NCBI GenBank assembly: GCA_903887775.1
Contig: CAISRB010000019.1
Span: 62,001-126,000 of the forward strand
Origin: an uncultured Bacteroidales bacterium
Lineage (GTDB): Bacteria; Bacteroidota; Bacteroidia; Bacteroidales; FEN-979
Direction: 5' to 3'
DNA: 64,000 nucleotides
The position numbers and the translations under genes were made by a program. How positions within the stretch are numbered: position 1 is the stretch's first letter; the number at the start of each line of letters is the position of its first letter. Of the stretch, positions 18,646-63,972 are shown piece after piece. The notes under the pieces are model-generated. The model searched no databases. It saw only the letters and a list, made by a program, of their open reading frames with translations, and was not told the origin of the DNA.

Positions 18646-19479
18646 TTAAAATGCGTCAAAATCAATAAGTTCAAAAAATAAATTGTCCTTTAGAAACGGA
18701 GGAATATCACCTGATAAATCTTTAAAAAGTAAATTGAGCGGGGATGGTTTTAATTTTTCCGGCATTGCTACAAACAGGCCATTAATTTGTTTTGTATTCA
18801 CCAACCCTATCCATAGTTTAAACGGTGATTTTTTCGAAGTTAAACCTGTTTTATACAGCAATGTTTCTTGACAATTTTGCATTTGCGCAAAAATTCCCGG
18901 TATGTCAGTTTTAGCTAAGATTGTCAGCTTGTCACGATAGTATTTTGCCTCAGGATTCCGAAGTCGCCACGACAAAGATTCATCATCCCATTTAGAATAA
19001 ACCTGGTGATTCGAAGAAATCCCGGGTATTATTGTCCCGATTCCAAGTTTTACTTCAAGCTGGGATATTTGGTTAAAACCGAATTTATTCAAATATCCCT
19101 TAGTACTATTCTGATTAGTAACTGTGATCACAAACTGATATTTTAAGCGCCTGGCCTCTTCGAAGGTTGCTTTTCCCAACTCTGTAAATAACCCTTTTCC
19201 CTGATGATCGGGATGAGTTACATTATTGAGAGCCAGTACCCCTTTTAAGACTTCCCCAAAAACGTTATAAACTACAGGTATTGTAGCGTGATGTGCAATC
19301 AATTCTCCGTCAAGGAACGCATCAGTCCCAACAATTGTGCCCACTGGGTTTTGTGCATACTGCCAATGTAAAAATTCCGGTGTGAATTTGGTTGTTTTTA
19401 CAAAAACCTTAGATAAAAGCCGGGAATAGGCATTAATGTTTTCACTTGAGACGACCGATTTGGCTATTTCATATCCCAT
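18646..19479 (-). CDS. GNAT-family N-acetyltransferase
   Basis: Protein of 277 residues. The acetyl-CoA binding motif A is visible as THPDHQGKGLFTELG (about 88-102, the Q-x-x-G-x-G/A pattern), followed by a QNSTKGYLNKFGF segment typical of GNAT motif B. The C-terminal 110 residues are not recognised. It lies seven bases after the polysaccharide deacetylase on the same strand, so the two are probably co-transcribed and may modify a surface glycan. The local DNA is richer in A+T than the flanks. Confidence 0.75.
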   Translation of the reverse strand: MGYEIAKSVVSSENINAYSRLLSKVFVKTTKFTPEFLHWQYAQNPVGTIVGTDAFLDGELIAHHATIPVVYNVFGEVLKGVLALNNVTHPDHQGKGLFTELGKATFEEARRLKYQFVITVTNQNSTKGYLNKFGFNQISQLEVKLGIGTIIPGISSNHQVYSKWDDESLSWRLRNPEAKYYRDKLTILAKTDIPGIFAQMQNCQETLLYKTGLTSKKSPFKLWIGLVNTKQINGLFVAMPEKLKPSPLNLLFKDLSGDIPPFLKDNLFFELIDFDAF

Positions 19480-19486
19480 ATCGGAT

Positions 19487-20323
19487 TTATTTAAGATTAT
19501 TTTGAATATAATTGTAATAAGTACAAATGCTAAATCCTTGATTCATAATGTAGTCAAGTCGGCTAAATACATTCTTTCTGTTGTAATACATAAGAAAGTT
19601 GTACAAATAATTATCATTAATTCCAGGATTCATATATCGTTCCTGGGTTGAGTCAATATCATAGGGATGAAAATATCCAACTGCAGGGATTGTTTTTGCA
19701 ATACAATTTTTTATGCCGCCTTTAATAAAAAATTTCGGTAAAACCCGAAAATATACTCCTCCGAATACTGGTACAGTCATATGGAAAAACCTCCCCATTG
19801 TCAATGGTATTTCGACAATTTTATCGTTCACTTTCCGTGGAGTAAATCCAAATGTTTCCCAGCCGTAGAATGGATTTTTTGCAGGTAAAACAGAGCTTGA
19901 GTAAGAAAATGTCAATTCTGATAGTACCTTATAGGCCCACTCGGTTTTTTGAGTCAGTGAAAACACAGGAGCCCGAAATCCGGTAATCTGGCCAGCTCCG
20001 GCTTTCATTAAGACTGAAACATTTTCCTCCAGGTCTTTTCTGAATTCAGTTGGCGTTTGTTTATCAAGTGGGATATGATTATTGGTATGACAGGCTATTT
20101 CATGCCCTTCGCTCACAATTTCATTGATGAGCGAAGGGTATAAAACAGCTATATCCCCTGTTACAAAAAAAGTACATTTCGAATTATACTTTCTGAGCCA
20201 GTTAAGATAGATATGAGTGTTTACCGGCACTCTTTCCTCATAATTTTCCGGATTTTTCAGCCTTAGTCTGATGTCCTCTAAATCAATGCTGAATAAAAAA
20301 ATGTTTTGATTACTATTTGCCAT
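19487..20323 (-). CDS. Polysaccharide deacetylase (NodB domain)
   Basis: Protein of 278 residues. NodB-type motifs are present: Asp14/Asp17 in FSIDLEDIR, the metal-binding His79 and His83 in CHTNNH, and GFRAPVF (Arg117, Pro119). This family removes N-acetyl groups from polysaccharides. The C-terminal half (HPYDIDS, RLDYIMNQGF) resembles the deacetylases of exopolysaccharide loci. There is no signal peptide, so the substrate is probably a cytoplasmic lipid-linked or oligosaccharide intermediate. It is paired with the GNAT gene downstream. Confidence 0.82.
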   Translation of the reverse strand: MANSNQNIFLFSIDLEDIRLRLKNPENYEERVPVNTHIYLNWLRKYNSKCTFFVTGDIAVLYPSLINEIVSEGHEIACHTNNHIPLDKQTPTEFRKDLEENVSVLMKAGAGQITGFRAPVFSLTQKTEWAYKVLSELTFSYSSSVLPAKNPFYGWETFGFTPRKVNDKIVEIPLTMGRFFHMTVPVFGGVYFRVLPKFFIKGGIKNCIAKTIPAVGYFHPYDIDSTQERYMNPGINDNYLYNFLMYYNRKNVFSRLDYIMNQGFSICTYYNYIQNNLK

Positions 20324-20381: not shown

Positions 20382-21383
20382 TTACTTTACAGGGAACAGA
20401 ATATCGGTTTCAAGCTTTGCAGGATCCTTTTCGCTCATCGGGTCGGTAACATATATTTCAGTTGGCCCTCCGGCCTGCTGAAGCCCGGCTTCTTTAATGT
20501 ATTGGTCCAGGATATGGTATGTAACCGCAGTCTTGTCATATGCTCCGAAATAATAGGCCATGACGACATTCTGTGCAGGTATTTTTTCAACCCTCACCCT
20601 GCCTTTGCCCTTATCTGCTTTTTCGACGACAATCCCTAAATCAATAACCCCGCTCATTGTAACCGTATCATATTTCAGATATACAGCAAACGGATGCCCG
20701 GTACATTTGAGTTTGTTGGTTTTCACAAAGGCCATCAGTTCACCAAATCCCCTGCCTATGACTTTTTCATATGTCTTCGGCCCGGCCGAATCCCTTATAA
20801 GTATTGCAATCTGTTCAGGCATGGCTTTTTCTTCAATCCTTGGCCATGAAGCCCTGGATTCGCAGACATTTTTCAATTTTGTAAGCCCTTTGATGAAATC
20901 CGGGCCCAGCATTTTGTCCATCATCAGTCCGAAATACCTGTTTATCGGGTTATACCCCAGGTCTCCCTCATCAATCCATGAAACTTTGCTCGAATCACCG
21001 GCCTGCTCAATGATAATTTTCCCTTTTGACTGGTATTTTCCTTTGTTGAATGCGAGATCATATGAGAACTGTTGTTTGGGAATATAGCCCGTGGCAGTCA
21101 TCTGCCCGTTACCAAGAATTTTACCATCCCATTTCCAGATTGCTCCCACCTGTCCTTCCTTTCCGATAAGTTCAAAAACAGCTGTTGAATCGACAGCCTT
21201 AGTCCAGGGTTCCCACAATTTCCATTTCCTGAAATTACTCGTAAGGTCGTAAATTAATTCAGGTTTGGCTTTGATATAAACCGAATGCTCAACTTTATAT
21301 GTTTTGGGCAATGCATAGGCTACCAGGATCAAAACCAGGATGATCGCCAGTATCCAGATCACTATTTTTTTAAATGTTTTCAT
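20382..21383 (-). CDS. SRPBCC domain protein with C-terminal GyrI-like domain
   Basis: Protein of 333 residues. A membrane anchor (about 7-27) is followed by a START/SRPBCC lipid- or ligand-binding domain (about 33-165, starting VYIKAKPELIYDLTSNFRKW) and a GyrI-like/AraC effector-binding domain (about 180-333, with FAVYLKYD and KIPAQNVVMAYYFGAYD). Both halves are ligand-binding folds, so this may be a membrane-tethered sensor or carrier. No DNA-binding domain is present. It stands alone and diverges from the SDR gene at 21495. Confidence 0.8.
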   Translation of the reverse strand: MKTFKKIVIWILAIILVLILVAYALPKTYKVEHSVYIKAKPELIYDLTSNFRKWKLWEPWTKAVDSTAVFELIGKEGQVGAIWKWDGKILGNGQMTATGYIPKQQFSYDLAFNKGKYQSKGKIIIEQAGDSSKVSWIDEGDLGYNPINRYFGLMMDKMLGPDFIKGLTKLKNVCESRASWPRIEEKAMPEQIAILIRDSAGPKTYEKVIGRGFGELMAFVKTNKLKCTGHPFAVYLKYDTVTMSGVIDLGIVVEKADKGKGRVRVEKIPAQNVVMAYYFGAYDKTAVTYHILDQYIKEAGLQQAGGPTEIYVTDPMSEKDPAKLETDILFPVK

Positions 21384-21494: not shown

Positions 21495-22478
21495 ATGAAA
21501 ATTGCTGTTACCGGCGCTAACGGGCATGTCGGATATAATCTCTGTAAGTCCTTGCTGGATAAAGGATTCCAGGTCAAGGCCCTGACCCATCAACATACCG
21601 ATTCGATCAGTAAACTTAACCTGACGCTTGTAAAGGGCGACGTGCTGGATAAAACTTCATTGCTTGATCTGATGGATGGCGCTGAGGTTGTTTTCCACCT
21701 TGCCGCCCAGATCTCCATTACGGGTGATCCCTCGGGTTCAGTCTACAGGAACAATGCCGATGGAACAAAAAACATGCTGTCAGCAGCCAAAGAACGTAAT
21801 ATCAAACGTTTTATTCATTTCAGTTCGATCCATGCCTTCAGCCAGGATCCTCAGGAGAAGGCCCTCGATGAGATGCGTCCCCTTGTAGGATCAGAAGCTT
21901 TTGCCTATGACCGCAGCAAGGCTGAAGGGGAAAAAGCCGTGATGGAAGCTGCAAGGAACGGAATGGATGCAATTGTTCTGAGCCCTACCGCAATTATCGG
22001 TCCTGCCGACCCTGAGCCGGGGCTTACGGGGAAAGCGGTACTTCAGCTGCTTCATCATAAAATCCCGGCACTGGTCCCGGGCGGTTACAACTGGATCGAT
22101 GTGAGGGATGTCGTCAGTACCGCTATTGCAGCCATTGAAAAAGCAAGGGCCGGCCAGAAATACCTTGTGGCCGGTAAATGGCATAGTTTAAAGGAGCTTT
22201 CGGCCTGTGTTGAAAAACATTCGGGCGTTAAGACTGTCCACACGGTGCTCCCGTTCTGGTCGGCCAGGATTGGCCTTCCTTTTATCACGATGTACAGCAA
22301 ACTGACCGGTAATGAGCCGTTATATACAAGCGAATCCCTCGAAATAGTGGCCAAAGGAAGCAGGCTTATCGACAATTCCAAATCAAGAAAGGAACTCGGC
22401 CTTGAACCCCGCCCGCTTGATGAAACTATTCATGATCTCATTGAATGGTTTAAAACCAATAATTATTTAAATAAATAA
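21495..22478 (+). CDS. Extended short-chain dehydrogenase/epimerase
   Basis: Protein of 327 residues. The Rossmann motif is TGANGHVGYNL (6-16), and the catalytic pair is Tyr138 and Lys142 in FAYDRSK with the upstream serine in HFSSIH. The overall form is that of dihydroflavonol-reductase/3-beta-hydroxysteroid-dehydrogenase-like extended SDRs, an NAD(P)-dependent group acting on sugars, flavonols or 3-hydroxysteroids. It ends four bases before a steroid 5-alpha-reductase homologue, so a 3-keto/3-hydroxy lipid substrate is attractive. That is inference; a sugar epimerase is possible. Confidence 0.82.
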   Translation: MKIAVTGANGHVGYNLCKSLLDKGFQVKALTHQHTDSISKLNLTLVKGDVLDKTSLLDLMDGAEVVFHLAAQISITGDPSGSVYRNNADGTKNMLSAAKERNIKRFIHFSSIHAFSQDPQEKALDEMRPLVGSEAFAYDRSKAEGEKAVMEAARNGMDAIVLSPTAIIGPADPEPGLTGKAVLQLLHHKIPALVPGGYNWIDVRDVVSTAIAAIEKARAGQKYLVAGKWHSLKELSACVEKHSGVKTVHTVLPFWSARIGLPFITMYSKLTGNEPLYTSESLEIVAKGSRLIDNSKSRKELGLEPRPLDETIHDLIEWFKTNNYLNK

Positions 22479-22482
22479 ACTC

Positions 22483-23244
22483 ATGATATCTTCCTCCACA
22501 TTTTATTTCATTGTCTATATCTGGATAGCCATTGGCCTGGTGAGTTTTCCTTTCATTATTAAGACGGTTGCGCCTTATGGTCGCCATACCAGTTCAAAAT
22601 GGGGTGCCATGATCAGCAACCGCTGGGGATGGATCATTATGGAAGCCCCTGCACTTCTTGTATTCCTTGGTTTTTTCTTTTTAAGCTCCCCCAGGCACAA
22701 TGCTCCAACCTGGATATTCTTTGGTTTGTATTCAATTCATTATATCAACCGTGACATTATTTTCCCGTTCAGGCTGAGGACTAAAGGGAAGAAAATGCCT
22801 CTGGCGATCATGTTCATGGCCATTTTCTTTAACCTCGTAAATGGTTTTATCAATGGATATTATCTCGGCAATTTTGCCGACGAGCATACGGTTGAATGGT
22901 TGCAGGATCCAAGGTTTATTGGCGGAATTATCGTGTTCTTTACCGGTATGTTTATCAATATGTATTCCGATAACATCCTGATCCACCTGAGGAAGCCGGG
23001 TGAAACCGGTTATGTGATCCCCAGAGCAGGTTTATTCAGGTTTATTTCCTGTCCGAATCATTTTGGGGAAATTATCGAATGGTTCGGATATGCTTTAATG
23101 ACATGGAGCTCACCGGGACTTGCATTTGCCGTATGGACCCTGGTCAATCTCCTGCCCCGGGCTTTGCACCATCATCGATGGTACCAGTCGACTTTTCCTG
23201 ACTACCCTTCTGAAAGGAAAGCGGTCCTCCCCTATCTTCTTTAG
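22483..23244 (+). CDS. Steroid 5-alpha-reductase (SRD5A1/2-like) membrane enzyme
   Basis: Protein of 253 residues, the same length as animal SRD5A1/2 and similar over its whole length. Shared landmarks are YGRH (32-35), Glu54 in IMEAPAL (position of SRD5A2 Glu57), Tyr87 in HYINRDIIFPF (position of Tyr91), DPRFIGG (142-148), SDNILIHLRKPGETGY (162-177), GEIIEWFGYAL and the terminal HHHRWY...FPDYP. About six or seven membrane helices are visible. The family reduces the delta-4 double bond of 3-oxo steroids with NADPH; related prokaryotic enzymes act on steroids and other polyprenoid or enone lipids. It is cotranscribed with an SDR. Confidence 0.87.
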   Translation: MISSSTFYFIVYIWIAIGLVSFPFIIKTVAPYGRHTSSKWGAMISNRWGWIIMEAPALLVFLGFFFLSSPRHNAPTWIFFGLYSIHYINRDIIFPFRLRTKGKKMPLAIMFMAIFFNLVNGFINGYYLGNFADEHTVEWLQDPRFIGGIIVFFTGMFINMYSDNILIHLRKPGETGYVIPRAGLFRFISCPNHFGEIIEWFGYALMTWSSPGLAFAVWTLVNLLPRALHHHRWYQSTFPDYPSERKAVLPYLL

Positions 23245-60264: not shown

Positions 60265-61504
60265 GCTGCATCTGAAACCACGGCTGTGGATCATACTGCC
60301 GGCCCTGGCAGCTCTTTTTATCATTTTGATTGTCATCGGGGTATGGTTGTATAACCTGAGAATGACAGAGAAGCCGAAGACTGTGGCAAAGCCTCATCTA
60401 AACCAGGCATACAATATAAAGCTTGACAGCCTTGAGATCATCTGCAGTAAAGTCGGAAATAATCAGAGCCTGTCAGATATCCTTAAACCCTTCATTTCAG
60501 GAGGGATGATCGATAAGATTGCCAAAGGGACCAGTGATGTTTTTGATGTTAGGAAGATGCACTCGGGCAACATCTGTGCGAGGATTACAACTAAAGATTC
60601 AACCCGGCGCATGCTGTATTTTATTTATGAGATCAACAGCATTGAATTCGTGGTTTATGATTTCAGGGATTCATTAAGAGTTTACCGTGATAAAAAGAAA
60701 GTGAAGGTGGATGTTAAGACGGCTAGCGGCAGCATTTCCGGCTCACTGTGGAAAACCTTCGAAGACCTGGACCTTAATATAAACCTGGCTCTGGATCTTT
60801 CGGAGGTCTTTGCCTGGACTGTCGATTTTTATGGTTTGCAGAACGGCGATACTTTCAAGGTGATTTATGAGGAAATGTATGTGGATGGCAGGATGATTGG
60901 AATTGACAGGATACTTTCGGCTTACTTTCGTAACGGGGATAAGTCCTATTATGCCTTCCTGTGGGAAGATAAGGGAAAGAAAGCTTGGTTTGATGAGAAC
61001 GGGCAGAGCCTTCAGCGTTCATTTCTCAAAGCCCCCCTGAGGTTTTCCAGAATAAGTTCACGATTCTCCCGTTCAAGGATGCATCCTATATTAAAGATTG
61101 CAAGGCCTCACTGGGGTGTTGATTATGCAGCCCCACATGGGACTCCTGTCGAGGCTCTCGGAGAAGGAAAAGTGACGGAAGCCGGCTGGAAAGGAGGTTA
61201 TGGAAGGTTCATCTCAATCCGCCATAATTCAGTTTATGCTACTTCGTATGCCCATCTTTCAGGATATGCGAAAAATATCAGGCCCGGGGTTCATGTCAGC
61301 CAGGGCCAGGTGATCGGTTTTGTTGGCAGCAGCGGACTGGCAACCGGGCCGCATCTTGATTTCAGGGTATATAAAAACGGGTCGCCTGTTGATCCGCTTC
61401 GCATGGAATCGCCCCCTTCGGATCCGGTGCCTCCCATGTCGATGCAACAATACAATGCCATCGTAGCCCGGTGGAAACCTCAACTGGATAAAATAAAACT
61501 CTAG
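60257..61504 (+). CDS. M23 family metallopeptidase (peptidoglycan endopeptidase)
   Basis: Protein of 415 residues. A membrane anchor (about 9-33) is followed by an OapA/LysM-like or inhibitory domain (about 45-260) and the LytM/M23 domain. Zinc ligands are His285, Asp289 and His366 (HWGVDY, HLDF), with His333 in YAHLSG. It cuts peptide cross-bridges in the cell wall. It starts eight bases inside the phosphoesterase gene, and its stop overlaps that of the convergent OYE gene in the palindrome CTAG. Confidence 0.92.
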   Translation: MNKLHLKPRLWIILPALAALFIILIVIGVWLYNLRMTEKPKTVAKPHLNQAYNIKLDSLEIICSKVGNNQSLSDILKPFISGGMIDKIAKGTSDVFDVRKMHSGNICARITTKDSTRRMLYFIYEINSIEFVVYDFRDSLRVYRDKKKVKVDVKTASGSISGSLWKTFEDLDLNINLALDLSEVFAWTVDFYGLQNGDTFKVIYEEMYVDGRMIGIDRILSAYFRNGDKSYYAFLWEDKGKKAWFDENGQSLQRSFLKAPLRFSRISSRFSRSRMHPILKIARPHWGVDYAAPHGTPVEALGEGKVTEAGWKGGYGRFISIRHNSVYATSYAHLSGYAKNIRPGVHVSQGQVIGFVGSSGLATGPHLDFRVYKNGSPVDPLRMESPPSDPVPPMSMQQYNAIVARWKPQLDKIKL

Positions 61505-62586
61505 CCTGCTTTTTCCCTCAGCTTTTTTTGTGCGGGGCAGAGTTCACTGGTTTCAAACCACCTGCATTTTGGCTTGCATGAAAGGCAGGGATTGATCAGC
61601 TGATCATGTTGCACATGCTTTACCCAGAATGGATCGGCAAGCTGTGGCCGGCCGATAGCAACAAAATCAGCCCGGCCGCTTTCGACGAGGTGGTTTGCCC
61701 TTTCGGCCGTTTTAATTTCGTTTACAACAATTACCGGGATGCTTATGTTCTCTTTGACTTTTACCCCTGAATATACGATCCAGTTAAAATCAAACCCTTT
61801 CGGAGGCCTGGGGAGGTTCCGGAGGTTCCCCCCATGCGATACATGAATGTAGTCGGCACCATACGATTCAATGGCTTTTGCAATGCGGATGCCATCAGCA
61901 AGGGCGGGCGTATTCGCGCCTAATCTGTAACCCAGTATGAATTTGTTCCCGCATTGCTCTCTTATTCCATAAATGATTTCTCTGGCAAAGCGGATCCGGT
62001 TGTCCAAACTGCCGCCATATTCATCGGTCCTCCTGTTCCATAAGGTATTTGCAAACTGGTTTATCAGGTAGCCGTGTGCACCGTGAAGTTCCACTCCGTC
62101 AAATCCAGCCTCCCTTGCCCTTCTTGCGCCATGAATGAAAGCTGAAATGATCTCAGGGATCTCATCTGAAGTAAGTTCACGTGATTCCGGTTTATCTTTT
62201 TGTTCAGATGGCCCAAATGCGTATGGAGATACTGCAGCCGGGGTCACAAGACCTGCATGATGAAGCTGAAGAAGGGAAACTGCCCCATGCCCCCTTACAA
62301 TGGTAGTTATCTCACTCAGGCCGGCAATATGTTCATCGGACCACACGCCAAGCTGGGTATGAGTGGTCCTTCCGTCTTTTTTAACGGCAGTGGCCTCGGT
62401 TATAATGATCCCTGCCCCGCTTTCAGCTCTTAAACGGTAATGATCGAGGTTCTTTCGACTTACAGATCCGTTATCTCCCGCATATCCGAAACATACCATC
62501 GGAGGTAAAACAATTCTGTTCTTAACCCTGGATCCTTTAAGGTCAAATCCGGAAAACAGCGATGAAAACCTGGTTGGATGATTCAT
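61501..62586 (-). CDS. Old Yellow Enzyme-family NADH:flavin oxidoreductase with Fe-S cysteines
   Basis: Protein of 361 residues forming the FMN-binding TIM barrel (VLPPMVCFGYAGDNG, GFDGVELHGAHGYLINQFANTLWNRRTDEYGGS, ADFVAIGRPQLADP). The barrel end keeps four cysteines, Cys334, Cys337, Cys341 and Cys350 (CLSCKPKC then C), in the spacing of the 4Fe-4S site of 2,4-dienoyl-CoA reductase and BaiCD-like steroid or enoate reductases. The FAD/NAD(P)H domains of those roughly 650-residue enzymes are absent, so electrons must come from another protein. It is the third gene of an SDR-EXPERA-OYE operon. Confidence 0.86.
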   Translation of the reverse strand: MNHPTRFSSLFSGFDLKGSRVKNRIVLPPMVCFGYAGDNGSVSRKNLDHYRLRAESGAGIIITEATAVKKDGRTTHTQLGVWSDEHIAGLSEITTIVRGHGAVSLLQLHHAGLVTPAAVSPYAFGPSEQKDKPESRELTSDEIPEIISAFIHGARRAREAGFDGVELHGAHGYLINQFANTLWNRRTDEYGGSLDNRIRFAREIIYGIREQCGNKFILGYRLGANTPALADGIRIAKAIESYGADYIHVSHGGNLRNLPRPPKGFDFNWIVYSGVKVKENISIPVIVVNEIKTAERANHLVESGRADFVAIGRPQLADPFWVKHVQHDQLINPCLSCKPKCRWFETSELCPAQKKLREKAG

Positions 62587-62593
62587 AAAATAA

Positions 62594-63124
62594 TCATTTA
62601 TTCACTGATTCTTTCAAACACTCCTTCGTAAACGGATGTTCCTTTTTCCACATTTTCCAGATCAGAAAAACGGGAAACAGGAACCATGGTGCATTGGCAA
62701 ATAAGACCAGCGGAAGGTTCTTCGCAGGTGTGAGTCCGAAGATCTCCTCGCTGCAGATAATAAATACATTCGTAAATAAGATTGACATGATAATGATGGT
62801 TGGGATCCTTATCCATTCCTTCCCTTTTATGAATGCGTATATCGCGGTTGCATAATAGGGTCCGAAAAAAACGACATCCAGCCATATTGTAGCTTTCCAC
62901 CAGGTTGGCCTGAGCCATTGCAAAGGATCGAAATTAGCTCCCCACCAATGGGTCATATTGACTAAAAAAGGCAGAGGCCATACCGGATAATCGAAATTCG
63001 ACGGATCAGCAATGACCAGCTGTTCGAGGTCGACGATATAGGTTATAAACAGGATATTGATCACAAAAAAACCGATATAAATATAATCAGCAGGCCTCTC
63101 CTTTAAGGGAATAACATTTCGCAT
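62594..63124 (-). CDS. EXPERA-domain membrane protein (TMEM97/EBP-like)
   Basis: Protein of 176 residues with four membrane helices. The order ERPADYIYIGFFVINILFITYIVDLE, FDPLQWLRPTWWKATIWLDVVFFGPYY and ATAIYAFIKGKEWIRIPTIIIMS matches the EXPERA domain shared by TMEM97 and the emopamil-binding sterol isomerase. Acidic residues Asp/Glu in helices 1 and 2-3 are in the positions used by those proteins. It lies 11 bases after an SDR and seven before an OYE, so an isomerase or binding role for a sterol-like or terpenoid lipid is possible. Confidence 0.75.
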   Translation of the reverse strand: MRNVIPLKERPADYIYIGFFVINILFITYIVDLEQLVIADPSNFDYPVWPLPFLVNMTHWWGANFDPLQWLRPTWWKATIWLDVVFFGPYYATAIYAFIKGKEWIRIPTIIIMSILFTNVFIICSEEIFGLTPAKNLPLVLFANAPWFLFPVFLIWKMWKKEHPFTKECLKESVNK

Positions 63125-63135
63125 TGATCGTGGTT

Positions 63136-63972
63136 TTATAGGTTGAACATCTGAAGATTTTTCTTGTTTCTGGCAGTGCGGGCCATCTGTGCGGCAATCG
63201 AAAGCCTGAACGAACTGATATTGGAAATAAATGCACCTATCCTGGTTGATAAATCGGTGTAAACCAGTATTTTCGGGTTTATTGCAAGCTCTACCAGCTG
63301 TTTGGCAACATCATCGGGATTTTTGGGTTTGGCAAACATGCGGGTAATAAAATTCTGGTTATTGTTCATCAGGAAATCCTGTTCCACCTCTCCCAGCCTG
63401 GACTCGGGTTTTGAATCTGTTCTGATATACCCCGGGAAATACTCGCTAACCCTGATTTTGCTTCCCTTCCATTCTGATTGAATGGTCCTTGTCCAGGCTG
63501 AGAATGCGGCCTTCGAGCAAACATAGGGAGAGTAAAAAGGTATCCCCATCATAAAGCCGGGTGAACCTATATTGATGATGTGCCCTCCGCCCTGCCTGAG
63601 CATATGGGGAATCACTGCCTGGGTTGCAGTTACCGGCCCCAGGAGGTTTGTCCTGAATGCCCTGAGCAGATCTTCCCTGCTCACACTTTCTGAGGGTGAC
63701 ACAATAATGCTGGCAGCATTATTAATAAGAATATCGATCCTTTGAAAACGGGAAATCGTCTGCTCTATCATTCCCAGGCAGTCTTCTTCTTTTGAAAGAT
63801 CCGCAGTAATCACAAGGGTGTTATTCATTTTCGAGGCAATTTCCTGAAGTAGTTCTGAACGCCTTGCAACGAGTACGACCTTTGCGCCTGAATGGCCGAA
63901 AGCCAGCGCAGCAGCCTGCCCTATGCCACCTGAGGCACCTGTGATGATGACTACTTTATCCCTGATTTCCAT
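63136..63972 (-). CDS. Classical short-chain dehydrogenase/reductase
   Basis: Protein of 278 residues. The motifs are TGASGGIGQ, NNAA (LINNAASII) and YVCSK, with the active-site serine in NIGSPGF. The final 60 residues (MFAKPKNPDDVAKQL onward) resemble SDRs acting on long-chain or membrane-bound substrates. It is the first gene of the operon with the EXPERA and OYE genes. The start is close to the window edge and its promoter lies outside or in the last 28 bases. Confidence 0.85.
   Translation of the reverse strand: MEIRDKVVIITGASGGIGQAAALAFGHSGAKVVLVARRSELLQEIASKMNNTLVITADLSKEEDCLGMIEQTISRFQRIDILINNAASIIVSPSESVSREDLLRAFRTNLLGPVTATQAVIPHMLRQGGGHIINIGSPGFMMGIPFYSPYVCSKAAFSAWTRTIQSEWKGSKIRVSEYFPGYIRTDSKPESRLGEVEQDFLMNNNQNFITRMFAKPKNPDDVAKQLVELAINPKILVYTDLSTRIGAFISNISSFRLSIAAQMARTARNKKNLQMFNL

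Follow-up and report, generated by a model that had tools for sequence, protein, structure and literature searches.

Genes at the locus

The window (i.e., the whole 64,000-nucleotide stretch of DNA analyzed here, from an uncultured Bacteroidales bacterium) contains an SDR gene followed on the same strand by a gene for a steroid 5-alpha-reductase (5AR; Table 1). Both open reading frames and the short gap separating them lie where the sequence-only reading had placed them. A consensus scan of this gap revealed no plus-strand promoter-like site, which is weak evidence taken alone, and a gap of similar size occurs in most relatives. The spacing and the conservation of the pair suggest that the two genes are cotranscribed, as that reading had proposed.

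TABLE 1 Features of the window discussed in the text
Feature	Coordinates	Strand	Description
GNAT acetyltransferase and polysaccharide deacetylase genes	18646-20323	-	Adjacent genes; deacetylase with DUF3473, resembling the XrtA-system type
SRPBCC/GyrI-like gene	20382-21383	-	Fusion of an SRPBCC domain (Polyketide_cyc2) with a GyrI-like ligand-binding domain; oriented divergently to the SDR gene
SDR gene	21495-22478	+	327 aa; extended SDR; proposed 3-hydroxy/3-keto oxidoreductase partner
Intergenic gap, SDR/5AR	22479-22482	+	4 bases (ACTC)
5AR gene	22483-23244	+	253 aa; SRD5A1/2-type steroid 5-alpha-reductase; 7-TM
Flavin oxidoreductase (PF00724), EXPERA/EBP protein (176 aa), and classical SDR genes	61501-63972	-	Three-gene run

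The SRPBCC/GyrI-like gene is found upstream of the SDR gene in many relatives within the family, and its product could be a binder of a hydrophobic ligand. The polysaccharide deacetylase scored 175 bits against TIGR03006, under the cut-off of 276.2, and with the neighboring acetyltransferase gene it is perhaps part of an exopolysaccharide locus.

Family, fold, and conserved residues of the reductase

The 5AR matches the full Pfam profile Steroid_dh (PF02544, positions 1-150; E value of 1.8e-55; 187.5 bits versus a cut-off of 22.6). Its best sequence match in the PDB is PbSRD5A (7c83; 1.3e-70, residues 12-252), and human SRD5A2 (7bw1) was matched at 1.7e-49 over residues 17-252. The earlier description of this protein as a full-length SRD5A1/2-type enzyme is thus borne out from end to end. 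An AlphaFold2 model (pLDDT of 91.9, pTM of 0.90) aligned to 7c83 with a TM score of 0.92 (Z of 32.8; 2.1 A over 251 residues) and to 7bw1 with a TM score of 0.86 (Z of 28.6 over 243 residues), and the next structural match, 4quv, reached a Z of only 12.8; the protein is predicted to adopt the seven-TM fold of the two reference structures. A TECR-like enoyl-CoA reductase identity was rejected: the sole TECR among the PDB hits was much weaker (8.4e-11), and TECR is the outgroup of the tree described below.

The residue numbers of the window 5AR coincide with those of PbSRD5A. All of the motifs and catalytic equivalents claimed in the sequence-only reading (i.e., YGRH, Glu54, Tyr87, SDNILxxLRKPGETGY, and HHxWY) were located, and E54 and Y87 are invariant across 40 relatives, as are N159, D163, R170, N192, E196, T219, N222, and R226. 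The conserved NADPH residues are Y32, R34, N159, D163, R170, Y177, N192, E196, T219, N222, R226, and H230; the hydrogen-bonding NADPH contacts listed for PbSRD5A are kept, save for Y193, which is H193 in the window 5AR. The residues invariant across the 40 relatives are ones shown to matter in PbSRD5A and human SRD5A2 (PMC7815742, PMC7591894). Homology shows that the window enzyme has the catalytic Glu and Tyr as well as a binding site for NADPH.

A Gln-Glu-Tyr triad was described by Han et al., and human SRD5A2 loses activity when Gln56 is mutated (PMC7815742). The third member of this triad (Gln53 of PbSRD5A) is Met53 in the window 5AR, a replacement that the sequence-only reading overlooked while assigning Glu54 and Tyr87 correctly. 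Met also occupies this position in the gut 5ARs and in almost all bacterial relatives; among the loci, only L048, L049, and L051 have Gln before the catalytic Glu, the residue that defines the QEY type. Given its Met53, we file the window 5AR in the Met-Glu-Tyr bacterial branch and not as QEY-type. That Gln56 is essential in human SRD5A2 counts against reading the window 5AR as a steroid reductase. Met is probably compatible with 5-alpha-reduction, since it is carried by the 5ARs of L092 and L093, two loci that we assign to the gut cluster from their gene content; their neighbors (a flavin oxidoreductase and two classical SDRs) match the described cluster. Plant DET2, a Met-Glu-Tyr enzyme whose substrate has a sterol side chain, may resemble the window 5AR.

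A conserved SDR partner

The SDR matches PF01370 (3.5e-33) and 3Beta_HSD (7.8e-25), with no predicted membrane part in these family matches, and it carries a Rossmann motif (TGANGHVG) together with S111 and Y138-x3-K142, the Ser-Tyr-Lys site of an extended SDR. The closest named models, HpnA (TIGR03466; 224.7 bits) and SdmB (NF052578; 189.6 bits), are matched end to end at scores under their curated cut-offs (367.65 and 600, respectively). These subthreshold matches, with HpnA labeled as a hopanoid-associated sugar epimerase, count against the reading we favor. They would suit an incidental pairing, in which the SDR has nothing to do with the 5AR and is an aldehyde reductase or a nucleotide-sugar epimerase, as would the existence of certain 5ARs that stand without any SDR.

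The distribution of the pair makes such a coincidence very improbable. The SDR adjoins the 5AR at 29 of the 30 loci of the window's family and, in the other families of the class, at 21 of the 28 best-scoring loci, where the two genes are mostly no more than 15 bases apart (of the seven class loci lacking an adjoining SDR, two are cut by contig ends). The partner SDRs (n = 36) form a single clade (SH-aLRT of 99), outside which fall the reference 3wj7 and five SDR paralogs encoded in the window genome. One SDR clade tracks the 5AR over many families at near-zero spacing. G7/G10/G13, S111, Y138, and K142 are kept in at least 95% of these 36 proteins, and H11 is also conserved. An incidental sugar epimerase is further disfavored by the lack of a detected hopanoid cyclase in the genome. 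Other SDR types adjoin the 5AR in the Crocinitomicaceae and other Flavobacteriales, at L048, L049, and L051, and in the gut cluster, which indicates that 5AR-SDR pairing has recurred in separate lineages. The extended SDR is, as judged from gene order and phylogeny, a true partner of the 5AR; the association noted in the sequence-only reading is conserved across the class.

Two of these loci have unusual arrangements. The sole locus of the family in which the partner SDR is replaced upstream, by a 546-aa open reading frame, belongs to genome G031 (L018/L041), and L049 has two SDRs in tandem; L048, L049, and L051 all have different SDR partners. The score gap between SdmB and HpnA was considered as a substrate hint and rejected as too weak: it was 35, 23, and 5 bits for three partner SDRs (L005, L045, and L055, respectively), and 43 and 48 bits for L049 and the paralog L103.

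Phylogeny and distribution of the reductase

In a quick tree without bootstrap, which had TECR as the outgroup and long branches for the human and TECR sequences, the environmental Bacteroidota 5ARs including that of the window formed their own clade (SH-aLRT of 99). The gut-type 5ARs formed a separate clade (SH-aLRT of 100) with the window 5AR outside it, and PbSRD5A and human SRD5A2 branched outside both. The SRD5A1/2-type affiliation proposed earlier stands, with the refinement that the window 5AR lies outside the clade of the characterised gut Bacteroidales enzymes. We came across no clade with a proven non-steroid function, so the sequence-only reading was not refuted on that count.

The 5AR gene is present in 35 of the 37 genomes of the window's family, the exceptions being G002 (a weak hit only) and G021, and is patchy in the class (53 of 395 sampled genomes). 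As judged from isolate names, its named close relatives come from metagenome bins of lakes (e.g., Lac Pavin), marine samples, and cold-seep-like sets rather than guts; several records titled AG-xxx look, by name, like marine single-cell genomes. One 5AR with 49% identity (L085) comes from a record titled Candidatus Heimdallarchaeota and reflects either transfer or a binning error. Beta-oxidation genes adjoin the 5AR in two families only (L142, L143, L144, and L145).

That nearly every genome of one family has the gene is also compatible with an endogenous role, in which both enzymes would act on one compound made by the cell (a membrane lipid, quinone, or pigment) and the 5AR would reduce its alpha,beta-unsaturated ketone. 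Strong conservation and presence in the AG-xxx records suit such a core function, and the genome offers no self-made steroid, as no squalene or oxidosqualene cyclase was matched. The patchiness of the 5AR gene in the class and its co-occurrence with a flavin oxidoreductase related to that of the gut cluster (see below) speak against this explanation, as does the fact that the SRD5A1/2-type relatives whose published functions we consulted act on steroids (PMC7815742, PMC10382948). We consider an endogenous non-steroid lipid enzyme unlikely.

Related functions elsewhere in the genome

The genome (a 98% complete draft assembly) gave no SQHop_cyclase_C match, and hence no candidate for a squalene-hopene or oxidosqualene cyclase; a steroid substrate would therefore be imported. 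A self-made sterol or hopanoid substrate was rejected on the same result.

The genome does encode a homologue (57 to 58% identity) of the flavin oxidoreductase of the gut cluster, located on another contig and unlinked to the pair. Homologues of this gut type occur in 25 of the 37 family genomes. At an E value of 1e-60 or better, the oxidoreductase was found in 11 genomes of the class sample, 10 of them with a 5AR (Fisher P = 8e-9), and at 50% identity or more, 9 of 10 genomes had a 5AR versus 53 of 395 overall (Fisher P = 7e-8), both tests ignoring shared ancestry. A classical SDR gene follows the oxidoreductase gene in three genomes (loci L162, L163, and L165) from f58, another family of the class. 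The presence of this relative in the same genome supports steroid chemistry, and its lack of linkage to the pair counts against our preferred reading. On these co-occurrence data, the oxidoreductase ties the window 5AR to the chemistry of the gut set, though the genes are dispersed in the genome.

Several of these features would be expected if the genome encoded gut-type modification of bile acids or hormones by A/B-ring allomerisation, as in Parabacteroides and Bacteroides: the oxidoreductase homologue, the gut-like gene order in f58, and the Met53, Glu54, and Tyr87 residues common to gut and window 5ARs. We judge this improbable, because the window 5AR falls outside the gut clade, its locus lacks a flavin oxidoreductase and carries another kind of SDR, and the named relatives come from lakes and seawater, where bile acids are presumably scarce.

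The window itself possibly holds a second sterol-related locus, at its far end (the three-gene run in Table 1). The EXPERA/EBP protein is similar to the sigma-2 receptor (PF05241, 3.7e-11; 7m93, 1.2e-8). EXPERA genes occur in most genomes of the family, nearly always adjoined by an SDR gene, and 9 of the 10 EXPERA genomes in the class have a 5AR, although these are concentrated in one family (f58). Outside the window's family, the EXPERA genes had no steroid-like neighbors, and we treat the co-occurrence with 5AR as a lead only.

Proposed function

We think it fairly probable that the 5AR is an NADPH-dependent 5-alpha-reductase of an imported 3-oxo-delta-4 steroid and that the SDR serves at C3; the identity of the substrate is one that we infer. 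The 5AR, as a seven-TM membrane reductase, would transfer the NADPH hydride to C5 on the alpha face, while Tyr87 and Glu54 would polarise the C3 carbonyl, as proposed from structures and mutants of PbSRD5A and human SRD5A2 and suggested here by residue and fold identity. The SDR, on the basis of the conserved pairing and its family, would interconvert 3-hydroxy and 3-keto forms, making the enone substrate in one direction and reducing the saturated 3-ketone in the other, so that a 5-alpha-saturated 3-hydroxysteroid would result overall. It may also isomerise delta-5 to delta-4, by analogy with other bacterial SDRs (PMC11722256, PMC13079761). In a lake lineage, the likeliest substrates would be sterols from algae or animals, or compounds derived from the breakdown of such sterols. 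The separate flavin oxidoreductase could act on the 5-beta side, where it would add or take away the delta-4 bond, in line with proposals for its gut relatives.

A more specific and tentative proposal, which we rate as unlikely, is that uncultured Bacteroidota in stratified lakes and the sea use the pair to convert environmental stenols to 5-alpha-stanols at oxic-anoxic boundaries. The SDR would oxidise a delta-5 sterol, with isomerisation, to the 4-en-3-one, the 5AR would reduce this to the 5-alpha-3-ketone, and the SDR would return the ketone to the 3-beta-alcohol. The proposal fits the habitats suggested by the isolate names and the stanol/stenol ratio, a marker of anaerobic microbial sterol transformation according to the passage of PMC7292411 that cites Wakeham 1989. 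In the literature searched, we found no environmental gene for 5-alpha-stanol formation, and a two-gene unit conserved in lake and marine Bacteroidota represents a concrete, expressible candidate.

The reductase family and its occurrence in Bacteroidota are already known, as is the fact that its gut members pair with dehydrogenases. What is new, on the phylogenetic and gene-order evidence, is a distinct and widely conserved extended-SDR/5AR pair in environmental Bacteroidota that stands apart from the gut set. The sequence-only interpretation is partly supported: it is retained for the full-length reductase and its conserved SDR partner and refined as to clade. The gut bile acid 5AR is a single branch within a broader Bacteroidota group of enzymes that have distinct dehydrogenases as partners.

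Comparison with known systems

The characterised bacterial enzyme PbSRD5A reduces progesterone (PMC7815742). It shares with the window 5AR the full-length fold, 44% identity over the structural alignment, and Glu54/Tyr87, and differs in having Gln53 where the window has Met and in lying outside the environmental Bacteroidota clade. Human SRD5A2 is 37 to 39% identical and shares the fold and the Glu57/Tyr91 equivalents, whereas its Gln56 is replaced by Met. As read by eye from the sequence alignment, the equivalent of its Phe118 is conserved and its Arg114 is Met in the window 5AR, as reported for SRD5A1.

The described gut Bacteroidota cluster comprises a 5AR, a flavin oxidoreductase, and a 3beta-HSDH acting on bile acids, and disruption of the 5AR gene in Parabacteroides merdae stops the formation of alloLCA derivatives (PMC10382948). 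Like the window system, it combines a Met-Glu-Tyr 5AR with one or more SDR partners and a flavin oxidoreductase, of which the window genome has a homologue. However, the gut 5ARs form a separate clade (36 to 41% identity to the window 5AR), the habitat differs, and the gut SDRs are classical whereas that of the window pair is extended; the window 5AR locus has neither a flavin oxidoreductase nor classical SDRs as gut-type neighbors.

Among SDRs, the sterol C-4 demethylase reductase SdmB, which works on C3/C4 of sterols (PMC10202945), and HpnA are the nearest named models, with cut-offs far above the scores of the window SDR; 3wj7 is the closest solved relative, and the partner SDRs form a clade apart from it. 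In gut Bacillota, SpiR and 3beta-HSDH/I convert 3-hydroxy to 3-keto steroids with isomerisation before ring-A reduction (PMC13079761, PMC11722256). These enzymes are adjacent or fused to their reductase, and the window SDR likewise adjoins the 5AR. Their partners, in contrast, are 5-beta-reductases of the old yellow enzyme type, and SpiR, at 520 residues and with a Cys4 domain at its C terminus, is unlike the window SDR.
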